A model generated the notes under the pieces. The model was not told where the DNA came from. It worked only from the letters and a program-made list of their open reading frames with translations, and made no database searches. From contig NHBT01000028.1 in assembly GCA_002167805.1 (NCBI GenBank), positions 33,659 through 52,901 on the forward strand: a stretch of DNA of 19,243 nucleotides, given 5' to 3'. Source of the stretch: Owenweeksia sp. TMED14 (GTDB lineage: Bacteria; Bacteroidota; Bacteroidia; Flavobacteriales; Schleiferiaceae). Every line of letters starts with the position of its first letter. The stretch's first letter is position 1. Made by a program: the position numbers and the translations under genes. Positions 3,920 through 19,243 of this stretch are shown here, in pieces.

Positions 3920-4948
3920 ATGGGACTTTTTGACTTTTTAACCTATGATATAGCTATTGATCTTGGAACAGCTAATACCCTTATAATTCATAATGATAAA
4001 GTTGTAGTTGACGCTCCATCAATCGTTGCAATTGACAGATCTTCCAATGCTATTCTTGCAATTGGTCACGAAGCAATGCAAATGCATGGAAAAACTCACG
4101 AAAATATTAGAACTGTAAGGCCTTTAAAAGATGGCGTGATAGCAGATTTTGTTGCTTCAGAACATATGATTCGTGAAATGATCAAAAGCATCCCAGTATT
4201 AAAAAAGAAATTACTTGCACCGTCATTGAGAATGGTTATCTGTATTCCTAGTGGAATTACTGAGGTTGAAAAGCGTGCAGTCCGTGACTCTGCTGAGCAT
4301 GCCAATGCAAAAGAGGTTTATTTAATTCATGAACCCATGGCTGCAGCTATAGGTATTGGTGTTGATGTTCTTGAACCGAAAGGGAATATGATTATTGATA
4401 TTGGTGGAGGCACTACTGAAATTGCAATTTTAGCCCTTGGAGGAATTGTCTGCGACAAAAGTATCAAAGTAGCCGGAGATGTTTTTACCAGTGATATTGC
4501 ATACTACATGCGCTCTGAACATAATTTATATGTTGGAGAGAGAACCGCAGAATCAATTAAAATAAATGTTGGGGCTGCGATAGATAATCTAAGCAATCCC
4601 CCTGATGACATGTCAGTGCAAGGAAGAGATTTAATAACGGGAAAACCAAAACAGGTAGATATCTCTTACAAAGAAATATCTAAGGCTCTTGATAAATCAC
4701 TTACTAGGATAGAAGATGCCGTTATGGAAGCTCTTGCTATGACACCTCCCGAATTGTCTGCAGATATATACAATTCGGGTATTTATATGGCTGGTGGCGG
4801 GTCACTTTTAAGGGGTCTTGACCAAAGAATTTCTTCAAAAACAGACTTACCGGTATATGTTGCTGAAGATCCTCTCAGAGCAGTGGTGAGAGGCACAGGA
4901 ATAACCTTAAAAAACTTAGACAAATACCGCACCCTTTTGATGCGTTAA
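3920..4948 (+). CDS. mreB: Rod shape-determining actin homologue MreB
   Basis: A 342-residue bacterial actin that polymerises with ATP under the inner membrane and positions the peptidoglycan elongation machinery. Actin-fold signatures are all present: phosphate-1 loop IDLGTANT (13-20), CIPSGITEVEKRAV (108-121), HEPMAAAIG (137-145), phosphate-2 loop IDIGGGTTEIA (159-169), and the adenosine motif AGGGSLLRGL (291-300). The N-terminus MGLFDFLTYD gives the short hydrophobic or amphipathic membrane-binding end typical of MreB. Length is normal. It sits between purH (10-base gap) and mreC (3-base gap), which with mreD, PBP2 and RodA form a complete elongasome set in one transcript. Confidence 0.98.
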   Translation: MGLFDFLTYDIAIDLGTANTLIIHNDKVVVDAPSIVAIDRSSNAILAIGHEAMQMHGKTHENIRTVRPLKDGVIADFVASEHMIREMIKSIPVLKKKLLAPSLRMVICIPSGITEVEKRAVRDSAEHANAKEVYLIHEPMAAAIGIGVDVLEPKGNMIIDIGGGTTEIAILALGGIVCDKSIKVAGDVFTSDIAYYMRSEHNLYVGERTAESIKINVGAAIDNLSNPPDDMSVQGRDLITGKPKQVDISYKEISKALDKSLTRIEDAVMEALAMTPPELSADIYNSGIYMAGGGSLLRGLDQRISSKTDLPVYVAEDPLRAVVRGTGITLKNLDKYRTLLMR

Positions 4949-4951
4949 AAA

Positions 4952-5752
4952 ATGCGAAATGTCTTAAGGTTTATTATTCGATACCGCATAATCTCGACAC
5001 TTATTTTTTTTCAAGTTTTGGGTTTGTCGATAACATATACAAATTCAACCCTTCACCAATCTATTTTTTGGGATCAAGTACTCAATTTTCAAGGAAAATG
5101 GAACAATGTTACAGACAGTTGGCGAGGTTATTTTCAACTAAAAAATATAAATGAATCCCTTCAAAAAGAAAATTTAATATTACGAAATCAAATCGGACCA
5201 ATTCATATTGATTCAAAAGGACTCAATGACACTCTTCAATTTAAATGGATAGACGGGCAGGTCATATACTCAAGTATTCACTTAAAAAACAATTATTTAA
5301 TCATCAATAAAGGGAGAATGGATAAAATCTCTGTTGGAGATGGAGTTCTTGGAATTCAAGGAGAGGTAATGGGTATTATTGATAAAACCTCAGAACATTT
5401 TAGCAGAGTATTACCGATAATAAATAGTGAATCTCGAATTTCGGGCATCGTCAAAAAATCAGGTCATTTTGGTACAATAATTTGGCGAGGTGGCGCGCCA
5501 AATAGAGTTAAAATGATTGATTTACCTTTTGAAACCAAATTATTGACTGGAGATACAATTATAAGTGATTCTCGCTCAAATATTTTCCCAACAGGTATGC
5601 CTATTGGCTATATATCAGAGGTAATATCTGATTCTGCCAATCAAAGTCAAATTGCTACTTTAGAAATATTCGTTGATTATGCTAAAATTCAACCTATTTA
5701 TATAGTTAAAAACCATTTGAAATCAGAATTTGAAAAGCTTAGAAAACCATGA
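4952..5752 (+). CDS. mreC: Rod shape-determining protein MreC
   Basis: A 266-residue bitopic inner membrane protein of the elongasome, thought to activate PBP2 from the periplasm. It has one N-terminal transmembrane helix (about 11-29), a coiled-coil segment (about 50-82, rich in Q, N, L and E), and the two-part beta domain. Recognisable family stretches are NNYLIINKGRMDKISVGDG (113-131), SGIVKKSGHFGTIIW (164-178) and TGDTIISDSRSNIFPTGMP (199-217). Length is in the normal range. It starts 3 bases after mreB and its TGA overlaps the mreD start as ATGA, so the two are translationally coupled. Confidence 0.95.
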   Translation: MRNVLRFIIRYRIISTLIFFQVLGLSITYTNSTLHQSIFWDQVLNFQGKWNNVTDSWRGYFQLKNINESLQKENLILRNQIGPIHIDSKGLNDTLQFKWIDGQVIYSSIHLKNNYLIINKGRMDKISVGDGVLGIQGEVMGIIDKTSEHFSRVLPIINSESRISGIVKKSGHFGTIIWRGGAPNRVKMIDLPFETKLLTGDTIISDSRSNIFPTGMPIGYISEVISDSANQSQIATLEIFVDYAKIQPIYIVKNHLKSEFEKLRKP

Positions 5753-6249
5753 AAAAAATTAATAATTGGCTAATTTGGAGTGGTATTTTAATATTCGCTC
5801 AATCACTGATTATTAATAAAATTCAAGTATATGGATTTTTAAACCCATATATATACGTTTCCGTATTTTTAATAGTTCCAACCTATATTGGAAAAATACC
5901 CTTATTATTAATCGGAGCATTAGTCGGAGGCTTTATGGATCTGACGTTACTAACCGGAGGAATACATTTAATGGCATCAACTCTTACATGCTTCTTTCAA
6001 CCAAAAATTCTCGGATATATAGTCCCAAGAGCGGATGAAGAAAATCTACCATTTATGCCAAGTGATTTGGGAATACCCAAATGGTTAATTTATTCAGGTT
6101 CAACTATACTTATTCATCATACTTATTTATTTTTTGTTGATTCACACAGCTTTAATGCTCCTCTATATTTAATTTGGAGAATAATTATTTCCACATTTGC
6201 AACTACAATTTTAACCATGAGTATTCTCTTTTTTGTAAAAAACAAATAG
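5749..6249 (+). CDS. mreD: Rod shape-determining membrane protein MreD
   Basis: A 166-residue polytopic inner membrane protein, the least conserved part of the MreBCD complex. About five hydrophobic helices are visible (near 6-22, 32-48, 50-68, 112-130 and 140-163). Family hallmarks are the NPYIYV stretch (32-37), the G-x-x-x-D pattern in GGFMDLTLLTGGIHLMA (60-76), and a position between mreC and mrdA. The ATG overlaps the mreC stop by 4 bases and the stop lies 7 bases before PBP2. Identification rests as much on gene order as on sequence. Confidence 0.92.
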   Translation: MKKINNWLIWSGILIFAQSLIINKIQVYGFLNPYIYVSVFLIVPTYIGKIPLLLIGALVGGFMDLTLLTGGIHLMASTLTCFFQPKILGYIVPRADEENLPFMPSDLGIPKWLIYSGSTILIHHTYLFFVDSHSFNAPLYLIWRIIISTFATTILTMSILFFVKNK

Positions 6250-6256
6250 ATAAGTA

Positions 6257-8089
6257 ATGAGGAGCAAACTGCTTTTAACTCTTTTAATTGGGCTAACAGT
6301 AACATTCGTTTTTAGATTATTTCAAATTCAAATAATCGATTCAAAATATACTCTTGACGCTGCAAATAATGCTCAAAGAATGGAGAAAATATTTGCTCCA
6401 AGAGGAATTATTTTAGATCGCGATAGTAACCTTCTTGCTATGAATCAAGCTGCCTACGATATAGAAGTGACGACAAGTTTATTAAATTCCCTAGACACCT
6501 CAAGGTTATCAAAATTAATCGGTGTAAATGAAAAAAAAATTAAATCATCTTTAATAAAAGCTCAACGTTATTCTCCATATAGACCAAGTTCTTTAATTCG
6601 AGGATTAACAGCTCAAGATTTTGCAAAAATTCAAGAAGAGATAGGTTTTTATCCTGGAATCTCTATGAGAAGAAGAACCTTTCGAAAGTATTCTAACTCA
6701 GCATCAGGAAGCGCAATAGGGTATGTGGGAGAAGTTAATGATTATATTTTGTCAAAAAAACCTGAGTATAAATTAGGAGATTATATAGGAATTGCTGGAA
6801 TTGAGGCGAGCTATGAAAAGTACTTAAGAGGTAAAGATGGAATACAATACATAACAGTTGATAATCTGAATCGCGACAAAGGCCCATTTCAAGAAGGCAA
6901 ATATGACATTGACCCCGTTCCAGGAAAGAATATAATGACGACTTTAGACTCAAGATTACAAGAATACGGGAAACTACTGATGTCAGGAAAAAGAGGTAGT
7001 ATTGTTGCAATTTCTCCAGAATCAGGCGAAATACTTACACTCTTATCATCACCAGATTATAATCCCAATTTACTAGTCGGAAGGCACCGTTCAAAAAATT
7101 ATAATCTTTTATATCTCGATTCAATAAACAAACCTCTTTTTCATCGGGGCTTATTGGCTGTTTATCCTCCAGGTTCACCTTTCAAAATCATCAATGCATT
7201 AATTGCATTGGAGGAGGAAACCATAAAACCTTCGACCAACTTCAATTGTATTGATGGTTATCACTATGGCGAACTCCATATAGGATGTCATTGCGAATCG
7301 GGACTTGTTAATCTGCGCAAATCAATTTCTCATAGCTGTAATAACTACCATTGCCAAGTTTTCAAAAAAACCTTGGATAAATTTCAATCCACAGCCAAGG
7401 GCCTGGATGAATGGGAAAAGCACGTGAGAAGTTTTGGCTTAGGAAATTACCTTGGAGTTGATATCAATTCCGGAAGAAAAGGATTTGTACCAAATTCCGA
7501 CTTTTATAATAATTATTACCAAAATAAACGATGGAAGGCGCCGACCATTGTTTCTTTAGCAATAGGACAAGGCGAATTAGGGGTCACTCCTTTACAACTA
7601 TCTAACATGACTGCTATTATAGCTAATAGGGGCCATTGGTTTATTCCACATATTGTTAAATCTATTGAAGGAACCATGATTGATAGTCTTAAATATCTAA
7701 CTCCAATGAGAACAACTATTAAAAAGAAGCATTTTGATACCGTAATCAAGGGGATGGAAGATGTATTTAAAATTGGGACAGCTAAAGAATCTAGACTTAA
7801 TGGAATTCGAATTGCTGGCAAAACAGGTACAGCGGAAAATCCACATGGACAAGATCATTCGATATTCATCGCATTTGCTCCTATTGATTCACCTAAAATC
7901 GCAATTGCTGTTATTATTGAAAATGGTTATTGGGGATCGCGCTGGGCTGCTCCCATAGCCAGTCTAATGATAGAGAAGTATATAAACGACACTATAGCCA
8001 GAACAGACCTGGAGGAGCGTATGATATCCGGAAGTTTGGCAAATGAATATGGTGTGGAAAGTGTTGAAATCAAACTCCCTCATAATTAA
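6257..8089 (+). CDS. mrdA: Penicillin-binding protein 2 (elongasome D,D-transpeptidase)
   Basis: A 610-residue class B penicillin-binding protein that cross-links new peptidoglycan during sidewall growth, partnered with RodA. It has an N-terminal membrane anchor (about 5-22), then the pedestal/dimer domain starting at APRGIILDRDSNLLA (47-61), then the transpeptidase. The three active-site motifs are present: SxxK as S307-P-F-K310 in YPPGSPFK, SxN as S360-C-N362, and KTG at 522-524 in AGKTGTAE. The region between the first two motifs is unusually rich in Cys and His (C331, H336, H341, C344, H345, C346, H359, C361, H365, C366), which may hold a metal. The stop codon overlaps the rodA start as TAATG. 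The short tail after the transpeptidase is hydrophilic. Confidence 0.96.
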   Translation: MRSKLLLTLLIGLTVTFVFRLFQIQIIDSKYTLDAANNAQRMEKIFAPRGIILDRDSNLLAMNQAAYDIEVTTSLLNSLDTSRLSKLIGVNEKKIKSSLIKAQRYSPYRPSSLIRGLTAQDFAKIQEEIGFYPGISMRRRTFRKYSNSASGSAIGYVGEVNDYILSKKPEYKLGDYIGIAGIEASYEKYLRGKDGIQYITVDNLNRDKGPFQEGKYDIDPVPGKNIMTTLDSRLQEYGKLLMSGKRGSIVAISPESGEILTLLSSPDYNPNLLVGRHRSKNYNLLYLDSINKPLFHRGLLAVYPPGSPFKIINALIALEEETIKPSTNFNCIDGYHYGELHIGCHCESGLVNLRKSISHSCNNYHCQVFKKTLDKFQSTAKGLDEWEKHVRSFGLGNYLGVDINSGRKGFVPNSDFYNNYYQNKRWKAPTIVSLAIGQGELGVTPLQLSNMTAIIANRGHWFIPHIVKSIEGTMIDSLKYLTPMRTTIKKKHFDTVIKGMEDVFKIGTAKESRLNGIRIAGKTGTAENPHGQDHSIFIAFAPIDSPKIAIAVIIENGYWGSRWAAPIASLMIEKYINDTIARTDLEERMISGSLANEYGVESVEIKLPHN

Positions 8090-9366
8090 TGCGAAACGAT
8101 TCAAATTTATTCGGAAGAATTGATAAGATCACATTAATTCTTTATTATTTTCTGATACTTTTTGGTTGGGTAAATTTGCATGCAACTGTAAATGCAAGTT
8201 CTAATTTGTATCATTGGAACTGGAGTAATGAAGCCGGAAGACAGTTGATTTTTATTGGACTTAGTAATATTCTCATTTTTATATTTCTCCTGATTGATCC
8301 AAGAATATATGAATTTTTAGCAATACCGGTTTATGGAATTGCTATCATTTTTTTAATTTGTGTGCTGTTCTTTGGCGCAGAAGTGGGGGGAAGTAAAAGT
8401 TGGTTGGATATTGCTTCGTTTAGATTTCAACCGTCTGAGCTGGCCAAATTAGGAACCATCTTGATGGTTGCAAAATTATTATCGAAAAGAAATGTGAATC
8501 TTAGTGTTTGGAAAGACCGGTGGATTCCGTTTGGTGCTATTTTGTTACCAATTCTATTAATTGGCTTACAACCCGATGCAGGATCTGCAATTGTTTTTTT
8601 AGGACTGACATTTGTTTTAAATCGCGAGGGTCTCCCCTCTTACTTTATCCAATTAGGTATAGGAAGTATAATATTATCAATATTCGCTTTGGCTTTTAAA
8701 ACAAATACCATATTAATCATAATTTTATTCTTTTACATAATCGCTTTATTTATTCAACGAATTCAAAACCGAGTCACCTTGAAGGGCTTGATTCGCCATC
8801 GAATATCTTTTCTTATGATAATTGCTATTATTTGGAGTCGTTTTGTAAATTTTTTTTTCAACGAGCTCTTGTTACCCCATCATCAAGTCAGAATAAAACT
8901 TTTATTAGGTCAATTAGAAGATACCTCAGCTATAGGCTACCAAACTACACAATCTCTCATTGCTATTGGCTCTGGAGGAATTACCGGGAAAGGTTATATG
9001 AAAGGGACCCAAACAAAATTTAATTTCGTTCCCGAACAAGCGACAGACTACATTTTTTGCACTGTAGGAGAAGAGTGGGGGTTCCTTGGTTCAAGTATTT
9101 TTTTAACTTGCTTTTCACTTCTCATTGGTAGGATTATAATACTATCAAATCTTCAAAAAAATTCATTTGCACGAATTTTTGGATTTGGTCTCGCATCGCT
9201 ATTATTTATGCACTTTGCAATTAATATCGGTATGACCTTGGGACTAATGCCAGTTATTGGAATTCCCTTACCTTTTTTTAGTTATGGGGGGACTTCAATA
9301 ATGGCTTTTACAGCAATGCTATTTATTTTTTTGAGAATGGATTCTTATCGCTGGGAAACCTTGTGA
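8089..9366 (+). CDS. rodA: RodA, SEDS-family peptidoglycan glycosyltransferase
   Basis: A 425-residue polytopic membrane protein of the SEDS family (RodA/FtsW/SpoVE) that polymerises lipid II into glycan strands for the elongasome. Family motifs are FQPSELAKL (113-121), QPDAGSA (161-167), GSGGITGKGYMKGTQ (295-309), VPEQATDYIF (314-323) and the C-terminal GIPLPFFSYGGTS (391-403). The hydrophobic profile fits about ten helices. It is somewhat longer than E. coli RodA because of an extra, very hydrophobic segment around 190-260. It is assigned to RodA rather than FtsW because it lies directly after PBP2, with a one-base overlap. The 23-base gap to the convergent ppiD gene shows no clear terminator. 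Confidence 0.95.
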   Translation: MRNDSNLFGRIDKITLILYYFLILFGWVNLHATVNASSNLYHWNWSNEAGRQLIFIGLSNILIFIFLLIDPRIYEFLAIPVYGIAIIFLICVLFFGAEVGGSKSWLDIASFRFQPSELAKLGTILMVAKLLSKRNVNLSVWKDRWIPFGAILLPILLIGLQPDAGSAIVFLGLTFVLNREGLPSYFIQLGIGSIILSIFALAFKTNTILIIILFFYIIALFIQRIQNRVTLKGLIRHRISFLMIIAIIWSRFVNFFFNELLLPHHQVRIKLLLGQLEDTSAIGYQTTQSLIAIGSGGITGKGYMKGTQTKFNFVPEQATDYIFCTVGEEWGFLGSSIFLTCFSLLIGRIIILSNLQKNSFARIFGFGLASLLFMHFAINIGMTLGLMPVIGIPLPFFSYGGTSIMAFTAMLFIFLRMDSYRWETL

Positions 9367-17302: not shown

Positions 17303-17428
17303 ATGAATTATATTAAATATTATCTATTTAAATTCAAAAATGTCAAGTTTAAAATTATTTTTCTTAACTGGTTTGCTCTATTTCTTGCGACCATTGGAAG
17401 TTTAGTGACATTTTGGGTTGCTGTATGA
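17303..17428 (+). CDS. 41-residue single-helix membrane protein, coupled to the next gene
   Basis: A short frame of 41 codons from ATG at 17303 to TGA at 17428. The product has a basic N-terminal half (Lys at 5, 10, 12, 15 and 17) followed by one hydrophobic helix of about 22 residues (18-40, including NWFALFLATIGSLVTFW), so the N-terminus should stay in the cytoplasm. Its TGA overlaps the ATG of the next gene as ATGA, the same coupling seen between mreC and mreD in this window, which argues strongly for a real translated gene. It could be a small partner subunit of the four-helix protein that follows. I do not recognise the family and assign no function. Confidence 0.62.
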   Translation: MNYIKYYLFKFKNVKFKIIFLNWFALFLATIGSLVTFWVAV

Positions 17429-17751
17429 AGAAAAAATATGTCTGGACCATCAGCTTATTTTTCTTTCTATTTCATCAAATTGCGATTAAATACAATTTTT
17501 CCAATCCGCTTTTGGATTCGTGGCTTGACCCACTTCTTTTTATTCCAGTTTTAATAGGGGGAATCGAGATTTTTCTCAAATCATTATGTGATGACTTCAC
17601 GCTAAAACCAATTTTTATTTATTCATTTGCGACAGTTTCCGTAATTCTTTTCGAAATTATAATTCCTTCCTATGATAATCGTTTTACATCTGATTTATTA
17701 GATGGTTTCGCCATTTTTACAGGAACTTGGATATATCTAAAGAGCTATTAG
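17425..17751 (+). CDS. Small four-helix membrane protein, possibly VanZ-like
   Basis: A 108-residue polytopic protein with four hydrophobic segments (about 5-22, 36-54, 62-80 and 91-107). Polar residues cluster in the loops: DSWLDP (31-36) and PSYDNRFTSDLLDGF (81-95). The last loop, with R86, D90 and D93 before a final glycine-containing helix, resembles the acidic pattern of VanZ-like proteins, but the match is loose. I choose the ATG at 17425, which overlaps the stop of the 41-codon gene. The frame is open 12 bases further, to a TTG at 17413, which would place it inside the upstream gene. It converges on the trehalase-like gene with a 42-base gap showing no clear terminator. Function unknown. 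Confidence 0.7.
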   Translation: MKKKYVWTISLFFFLFHQIAIKYNFSNPLLDSWLDPLLFIPVLIGGIEIFLKSLCDDFTLKPIFIYSFATVSVILFEIIIPSYDNRFTSDLLDGFAIFTGTWIYLKSY

Positions 17752-17793: not shown

Positions 17794-19243
17794 CTAACTT
17801 ATTATTTCACCCGTTTCTATAAAATGCTTGCATGCTAAATATACACCCAGAGACCAGCCTGAACTGGTTTTCACTTGTTCAGAATTATCAAAATCTGAGT
17901 CGAATTTTTTAGGAAATCTCTTATATTTTTGAAAATATGCATCACAATTATTTGTGTAACATTGTGCTATTTTCTTTGCCAATTTCTCGTTTCCCGATCT
18001 GTAAGAGCCAGCAATACAGGCCCATTGTATAGGTGGGTAAATATTTGGAAAATCCCAATTTTGTCCAGAATTAATAAGACTCGTTAATACTCCTCCTTTC
18101 GAAAGATAATTCAGTTCTAAAATCTCCAATATTCTATCAATCTGCTTTATTCCTGGTGCACCAATCCAAAGTGGATAAAACATTGCTGAACTTAAATGAT
18201 CATTTCTGCCAATTCCATCTAGATCGATGTCGGTATATGTCTCGCCATTCCAAAACAAAGTATTCAGTGCTGATCTGCGTTCTCGAACTCGCGCACTCCA
18301 TTGATTCTTTTCTGCTGGAAATGCTTTCCCTAAGGCGAATTCTAGGTGAGATAAAAGAGCATTGAGCTCAATAGGAATTATATGAGCTGTTTTTAATGAA
18401 GTCAAATCCGTTGAATCTGACATCCAACGGCTACTAAATTCCCATCCTGATTCTTTAGCTGAAGATAAATGCTCTAATATTTCTTCTTCTGAAACTCCTT
18501 TTTTCACAGCAGATTGAATCAAATCAGGATACTTATGAATAACCTCTTCATTCTCAGTTGGTTGATCATTCCAATATCTATTTAGAACGTAACCTTTTAC
18601 TTTTACAACTCTGCGATAGGCAAACCCATCTGCAGCCTCCACATCAGCGCCTTCCATCCAGAACTGATACTCTCTTCGAAATGCAAGAGCATAATCCTGC
18701 CATTCTGCCCAGCCTTTGTTCACGATTAAGGATACCATCATTGAAAAATATGGGGGTTGAGAACTGGACAAGGAGTAATAGCGACATTTACTAGGAATTA
18801 AACCATATTTTTCCAACAAATAGGAATAATTATTAACCATATCTATTGCCAGTTGCTTATTTCCAGAGATGACAAGCCCCAGTAAAATAAAATAACTTTC
18901 CCAATAGGAAGTCTCCGAATCACCTTCAGAGGGAACAACATATGAATTTGGGAGGGGTATTCGACTACCAACCCATTTGGATTTATCCGGTGCTCTTTTC
19001 AAATTTGCCCAAAGCAATTGCGAAAAATCTAAAATGTTAGATTCACTTTTGAGATCGTTTTTTACTTCAATTTCTTTATCGAAGCTTAAGTGCTCCTTAA
19101 TAAACCCATCAGATTTTCCTTTGTAATTATCCCAAGATTCGAGTATTTTTTTTACACCGCCATTAGGCTTTGAATCACGCAACTTTTGGGGCTCAAATGA
19201 TGAACCTTTTGAAATTAATTCCGAAATCATTTTTTCCCATAAG
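17794..19243 (-). CDS. GH37 trehalase-family protein with altered active site (probably partial at its start)
   Basis: At least 478 residues from the ATG at 19230, with the (alpha/alpha)6 trehalase fold recognisable throughout. Stretches matching E. coli TreA include YVVP then SYWESYF (97-114), SSSQPPYFSMMV (155-166), VLNRYWND (215-222), ESGWEFSSRWM (260-270), GQNWDFPN (389-396) and SSGWSLGVYL (456-465). GH37 enzymes hydrolyse trehalose to two glucoses. Here the catalytic acid Asp312 is Glu264, the base Glu496 is Gln434, and Arg152, Arg205, Arg277 and Asn196 are replaced. Trehalose hydrolysis is therefore doubtful. No signal peptide is visible from this start. The frame stays open to the window edge, and the extra residues LWEK before Met1 resemble the LF-xx-VQ opening of trehalases, so the true start probably lies outside. 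Confidence 0.85.
   Translation of the reverse strand, partial: LWEKMISELISKGSSFEPQKLRDSKPNGGVKKILESWDNYKGKSDGFIKEHLSFDKEIEVKNDLKSESNILDFSQLLWANLKRAPDKSKWVGSRIPLPNSYVVPSEGDSETSYWESYFILLGLVISGNKQLAIDMVNNYSYLLEKYGLIPSKCRYYSLSSSQPPYFSMMVSLIVNKGWAEWQDYALAFRREYQFWMEGADVEAADGFAYRRVVKVKGYVLNRYWNDQPTENEEVIHKYPDLIQSAVKKGVSEEEILEHLSSAKESGWEFSSRWMSDSTDLTSLKTAHIIPIELNALLSHLEFALGKAFPAEKNQWSARVRERRSALNTLFWNGETYTDIDLDGIGRNDHLSSAMFYPLWIGAPGIKQIDRILEILELNYLSKGGVLTSLINSGQNWDFPNIYPPIQWACIAGSYRSGNEKLAKKIAQCYTNNCDAYFQKYKRFPKKFDSDFDNSEQVKTSSGWSLGVYLACKHFIETGEIIS

Follow-up and report, generated by a model that had tools for sequence, protein, structure and literature searches.

The gene treL lies at the right edge of a 19,243-nucleotide stretch of the Owenweeksia sp. 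TMED14 genome (C14:33659-52901; hereafter the window). Its product, TreL, is probably a pseudoenzyme derived from the trehalase family GH37, one that no longer hydrolyses trehalose and is kept for a non-catalytic job performed through one flank, most likely the binding of a partner. We favor this reading because the mouth of the former active site mostly drifts, the flank is frozen and the predicted fold is intact. The treL product is the sole PF01204 match in the whole home genome (1,720,102 bases, 32 contigs). Within the window the treL frame is open over 17794-19230 on the minus strand, giving 478 amino acids if read from an internal ATG; it extends past the right edge, where a TTG 24 codons upstream gives 502 amino acids. 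The sister genes in four other genomes encode 502-504 amino acids from the corresponding TTG, and the extra N-terminus between TTG and ATG is similar across the five genomes. No hydrophobic signal is visible in it by eye (no predictor was run), and TreL is therefore probably cytosolic. The sequences are metagenome-assembled genome (MAG) data, and the home assembly is rich in ambiguous bases just past the window edge, in the 5' end of treL, the intergenic region and a symporter gene beyond it (L012 7900-10600, G000:C14).

TreL lacks the catalytic residues of GH37 within a predicted trehalase fold

TreL matched PF01204 with an E-value of 7.1e-77 (259.9 bits, cut-off 21), and both its predicted structure and the PDB matches gave the (alpha/alpha)6 trehalase fold, as in E. 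coli TreA (PDB 2JF4, 2JG0, 2JJB). TreL is thus of GH37 descent, with the trehalase fold predicted by modelling. None of the NCBIfam trehalase models came near its cut-off (280.4 of 941, 278.1 of 512 and 259.2 of 560). PMC10969515 lists trehalase as the only enzyme of GH37 and defines motif 1 as PGGRFxExY..WD.Y, motif 2 as QWD.P and motif 3 as ..RSQPP, and the roles of the catalytic acid and base are treated in PMC9604388 and PMC10969515, the former also reporting three arginines as essential in an insect trehalase.

Residues were numbered after K-12 TreA, to which TreL was aligned with phmmer and MAFFT. Ten TreL rows (five genomes and five protein clusters) were compared with 136 GH37 rows. 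The latter are a nearest-hit list (115 proteins from the best 120 of 1133, 20 loci, and TreA), picked by similarity and rich in Enterobacteriaceae rather than an even sample of GH37. Outside this set stand L002 (canonical, with Phe at 157), L007, which lacks most canonical residues and seems to be a more remote member of the family, and L047, which ends before E496; for L008-L011 the query used gave no match.

All 136 outside rows retain both the catalytic acid Asp312 (motif 4) and the base Glu496 (motif 5). The computed alignment confirmed a preliminary description of the window, made by eye, in placing Glu264 (codon GAA) at the acid. It corrected that description at the base, which had been assigned to Gln434: phmmer and MAFFT both set E496 (VEKYD) opposite Lys441 (PKKFD, AAA, 17910-17908), which rules Gln434 out, and position 434 reads Gln, Lys, Glu, Glu and Glu across the five genomes. 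The coordinates of both codons and of the other features are given in Table 1.

Table 1 Features of treL and its surroundings in the window
Feature	Position	Strand	Basis or observation
treL, GH37-derived pseudo-trehalase gene (putative)	17794..19243	-	Open reading frame (ORF), PF01204, structure model and PDB matches
Codon 264 (GAA, Glu), place of catalytic acid Asp312	18439..18441	-	E2/G6/D2 in ten TreL rows
Codon 441 (AAA, Lys), place of catalytic base Glu496	17908..17910	-	K6/R4 in ten TreL rows
Frozen sector part 1, residues 172-222 (outer helix 177-191 and hairpin)	18565..18717	-	Conservation, omega, model
Frozen sector part 2, residues 282-347 (helices 287-303, 305-325, following loop)	18190..18387	-	Conservation, omega, model
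DIDLDG (DxDxDG), residues 334-339	18214..18231	-	10/10 TreL rows, 0/136 outgroups at loop
Former R277/E279 loop, residues 223-247	18490..18564	-	6/25 columns invariant in TreL
Former base and lid loop, residues 437-457	17860..17922	-	3/21 columns invariant in TreL
Small ORF, 112 amino acids, no Pfam family, downstream of treL	17413..17751	+	ORF list, Pfam scan

The active-site arginines R152, R205 and R277, presumably the counterparts of the three essential in the insect enzyme, are replaced throughout the clade by G3/T7 (R in 135 of the 136 outside rows), S10 and N3/K7, respectively. The other pocket positions read D3/S5/A2 at F153, S3/N1/T6 at Y157, W6/G4 at W159 (W in 136/136 GH37 rows), S8/T1/G1 at N196 and E3/R7 at E279, while Q207 and G310 are unchanged in all ten rows and D160E, D336E, G150S and G151E are fixed in all ten. 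The substitutions proposed by eye for the window protein (R152 to G103, F153 to D104, Y157 to S108, D160 to E111, N196 to S147, R205 to S156 and R277 to N227) were all recovered. Its four retained residues hold there as well, but across the clade this extends to Gly310 and Gln207 and fails for Trp159 and Glu279; likewise, homologues share R205S and the lost arginines, but Glu264 occurs in only 2/10 rows and position 434 varies.

None of the five GH37 motifs, as defined in PMC10969515, is intact in the window protein: each is broken or degraded. In the clade PGGRF is gone, replaced by PSEGD.. or SSET.., the Q446 position is N or E, RSQPP has become SSQPP, and the Gly-rich lid ahead of E511 is shortened, the E511 column itself being placed differently by the two alignments. 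Altogether, of 109 columns with at least 95% invariance across the 136 GH37 proteins, 57 are altered in TreL and 52 are kept, a change beyond chance. The canonical set is retained by the 25 other Flavobacteriales trehalases that were examined (Phe replacing Y157 in 17/25).

Constraint has moved from the active site to one flank

No in-frame stop was found in treL in any of the five genomes, and a codon model gave an omega of 0.057. TreL is thus an intact, selected protein in which the catalytic residues are missing, as in a pseudoenzyme. In the same genomes omega was 0.020 for the neighboring regulator, 0.046 for HMG-CoA reductase, 0.116 for CoaX, 0.087 for an outer-membrane-type protein and 0.176 for the small ORF, all but the regulator being named by eye; the symporter was left out of the model because its home copy has ambiguous bases. 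Constraint within TreL is very uneven: omega was 0.003 for residues 172-222 plus 282-347 (the frozen sector) and 0.077 for the rest, with the highest value in the pooled active-site loops (pairwise counts 0.10-0.54 where computable). Recent gene exchange as the source of the frozen blocks is disfavored, since the two subclades show a synonymous-site difference of 0.79-0.88 there.

The frozen elements are among the most variable of GH37 itself. In 57 diverse GH37 rows (<75% identical) the entropy was 2.50 for the outer helix 304-325 and 2.31 for the loop 326-347, against 21/22 and 19/22 invariant columns in TreL, and GH37-variable columns are invariant in TreL at 51/58 sites in the frozen sector vs 56/148 elsewhere (Fisher p 2e-11, a descriptive value because the ranges were chosen post hoc and the rows are related). 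Ninety-two TreL columns are fixed for a residue found in less than 5% of outgroups, the DxDxDG loop among them; this motif occurs anywhere in the protein in only 2/136 outgroup rows. Motifs of the DxDxDG type can bind calcium. By the order of helices in the model, the outer helices 177-191 and 305-325 should lie in neighboring barrel sectors with the hairpin 192-222 between them, so the frozen parts would form one contiguous surface.

The TreL barrel has thus lost its acid, base, active-site arginines, PGGRF and the full Gly-rich lid, and with them, presumably, trehalose hydrolysis. Selection probably keeps the protein for non-catalytic work through helices 177-191 and 305-325, the hairpin 192-222 and the DxDxDG loop, a surface expected to bind something, most likely a partner. 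Pseudoenzymes acting through allostery or scaffolding are reviewed in PMC10211241, as far as its text is accessible; TreL resembles them in a lost catalytic motif, a predicted intact fold and purifying selection, but the reviewed cases come from other families, with no GH37 case and no occurrence of "trehalase" in the main text.

Several observations weigh against this reading. The acid position is Asp in 2/10 TreL rows. The active-site loops 143-161 (15/19 columns) and 262-286 (16/25) are fairly conserved, so freedom to vary does not extend to all loops of the former active site. A different chemistry could be carried out by the fixed acids E102, E111 and E288. The limits of the frozen ranges were set with the profile already in view, and the ten rows represent some five or six independent lines, because P0002 is nearly identical to G015 and P0003-P0005 to G010. 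Finally, relatives keep the regulator and symporter without TreL, with matching gene order in G009, G006, G004 and G013.

Other explanations of the TreL sequence

The strongest competitor, though an unlikely one, is that TreL is still catalytic, its active site having been relocated so that E102, E111, E288 or the acids of DxDxD process a new substrate. The four substitutions fixed in 10/10 rows, the retained Q207 and G310, and the three fixed acids leave room for activity, and from the element order of the model the DxDxDG loop stands ahead of an inner helix, as active-site loops do. A rebuilt site should be fixed, however, yet most positions drift: 152, 153, 157, 196, 277, 279, 312 and 496 differ among sisters, and the pooled active-site loops show the highest omega. 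Less probable still is a non-catalytic sugar binder that uses the old pocket. The kept predicted fold, the fairly conserved loops 143-161 and 262-286 and the adjoining sugar regulator and sugar symporter would suit it, but most sugar-contact positions vary between sisters, Trp159, universal in the GH37 rows, is Gly in 4/10 TreL rows, and the frozen residues lie mostly elsewhere. The preliminary description had offered a different substrate or non-catalytic sugar binding; its non-catalytic part agrees with our analysis, the different substrate is disfavored, and there is doubt that the old pocket binds sugar.

Its view that the gene is not decaying was sustained. Decay accounts for the lost catalytic residues and for little else: it predicts an omega near 1 and broken frames, against 0.057 (0.003 in the frozen sector), a frame open in 5/5 genomes and 228 member sequences, and we regard it as very improbable. 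An ordinary trehalase misaligned at its catalytic positions is hardly credible: the by-eye alignment did err at the base, but phmmer and MAFFT concur on Glu264 and Lys441, and in the gap-free stretch leading to the (K/R)x(F/Y) motif none of the ten rows has a Glu where the base should be, so that the Asp/Glu pair envisaged in the preliminary description as contrary evidence did not appear.

TreL forms a small clade within one genus

TreL was present in 5/22 genus genomes. In a family search of 88 genomes, the other ten matching genomes belonged to a sister genus of the same family, and their trehalases keep the canonical residues, as far as the early-ending L047 reaches. Among 395 Flavobacteriales genomes (an even draw from a larger group) 54 matched; the same five scored above 1000 bits and the other 49, which include the 25 trehalases examined above, at most 278 bits, so that no TreL was found outside the genus in this set. 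A contig-database scan with six peptide patterns, of limited sensitivity, returned 15 loci (4 TreL and 11 at 31-35% identity) and likewise no TreL outside the genus. Among named copies, the nearest are MAGs labelled Cryomorphaceae or Flavobacteriales.

A profile search of about 5.8 billion proteins gave at least five TreL clusters with 228 member sequences (best 120 of 754), and the next proteins among these matches had at most 38% identity. In a 64-row tree TreL formed one side of a branch with a Shimodaira-Hasegawa-like approximate likelihood ratio test (SH-aLRT) support of 100; this branch spans 3.75 changes per column across the midpoint root, compared with a median end branch of 0.42. Judged from these sequences, TreL is a small clade and not a one-off. 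In 12 treL-less genus members, tblastn of 12 loci (E <= 1) detected no treL remnant, and most simply treL was gained once beside the regulator and symporter unit.

TreL adjoins a sugar regulator and symporter

The preliminary description had suggested the gene beyond the right edge as a pathway clue. In 5/5 TreL genomes treL diverges from the gene of a regulator that combines Nudix and NrtR/AraR winged-helix domains and has AraR as its closest solved structure (5BS6, E 1.5e-50). Next comes a Na+/sugar symporter very near the 2XQ2 protein (sodium/glucose cotransporter, E 3.1e-237), which we take to be vSGLT, and after it stand genes like those of HMG-CoA reductase and GHMP kinase, named by eye. 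AraR/NrtR regulators have a Nudix fold from which the catalytic residues are missing, and they bind a sugar (PMC4666351). They parallel TreL as a hydrolase fold repurposed in sugar control, but have another fold and their own DNA-binding domain, which TreL lacks.

Gene order points weakly to the regulator or symporter as the TreL partner, the hint being weak because relatives manage without TreL: orthologues (>=59% identity for the regulator) occur in 17/22 and 12/22 genus genomes, respectively, and the link to sugar uptake thus rests on gene order in one subclade. That the partner belongs to a sugar uptake or control unit is a tentative guess. Slightly more speculative is the full proposal that in these marine Bacteroidota a trehalase barrel became a protein-binding, possibly metal-binding module, with a drifting catalytic mouth and a frozen DxDxDG flank, that tunes the AraR-type regulator or the vSGLT-type symporter.

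Gene content beside the regulator changes within the genus, as a GH3 gene adjoins the orthologous regulator in six TreL-less members (G018, G020, G002, G001, G008 and G005; L084, L085, L086-L089; Pfam scan of two). With a GH16 gene also near it in G020, the regulator probably serves beta-glucan sugars. In a regulator tree of 16/17 orthologues (without G020; long-branch warning for two paralogues) the TreL carriers formed one side of a branch with SH-aLRT 98. Several genomes without TreL have relatives of the small ORF next to the regulator. For trehalose synthesis the search covered the OtsA family and no other route; an OtsA-type synthase was detected in 0/22 genus genomes. A candidate shared operator upstream of the regulator was set aside: three of the five TreL genomes contained the pattern, and hits numbered 7, 7, 1, 1 and 1 for the backward control vs 0, 0, 2, 2 and 2.

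Consequences for annotation and further observations

Pfam-based annotation labels TreL a trehalase, which would credit these marine bacteria with a trehalose degradation they probably lack; the NCBIfam models stay below their cut-offs. TreL offers a clear natural case in which constraint has left an active site for a different face of the same fold, and its frozen flank supplies a short residue list for a partner hunt. No pseudo-trehalase was found in the literature searched on inactive trehalases and glycosidases, most subscription papers lying outside its reach; if the full proposal above is true, TreL would stand in that literature as the first pseudoenzyme of GH37 to have an alternative surface defined. 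One paper on a nematode trehalase and plant immunity (PMC12309661) reportedly uses the words "inactive trehalase".

Elsewhere in the home genome, a laminarin-like beta-glucan locus was recognized by eye (L097 1-12316, G000:C26:9000-21315) with SusC-like, SusD-like, GH16-like, GH3 and GH5-like genes, of which the family search confirmed GH3 only. A paralogous Nudix-type regulator, 46% identical to the neighbor of TreL (L090 1-6966, G000:C15:37000-43965), lies beside an apparent GH65 phosphorylase, beta-phosphoglucomutase, phosphofructokinase and MFS transporter, only the last having been checked. Within the window, 3920-9366 on the plus strand holds what by eye is an ordinary cell-shape operon (MreB, MreC, MreD, penicillin-binding protein 2 and RodA).
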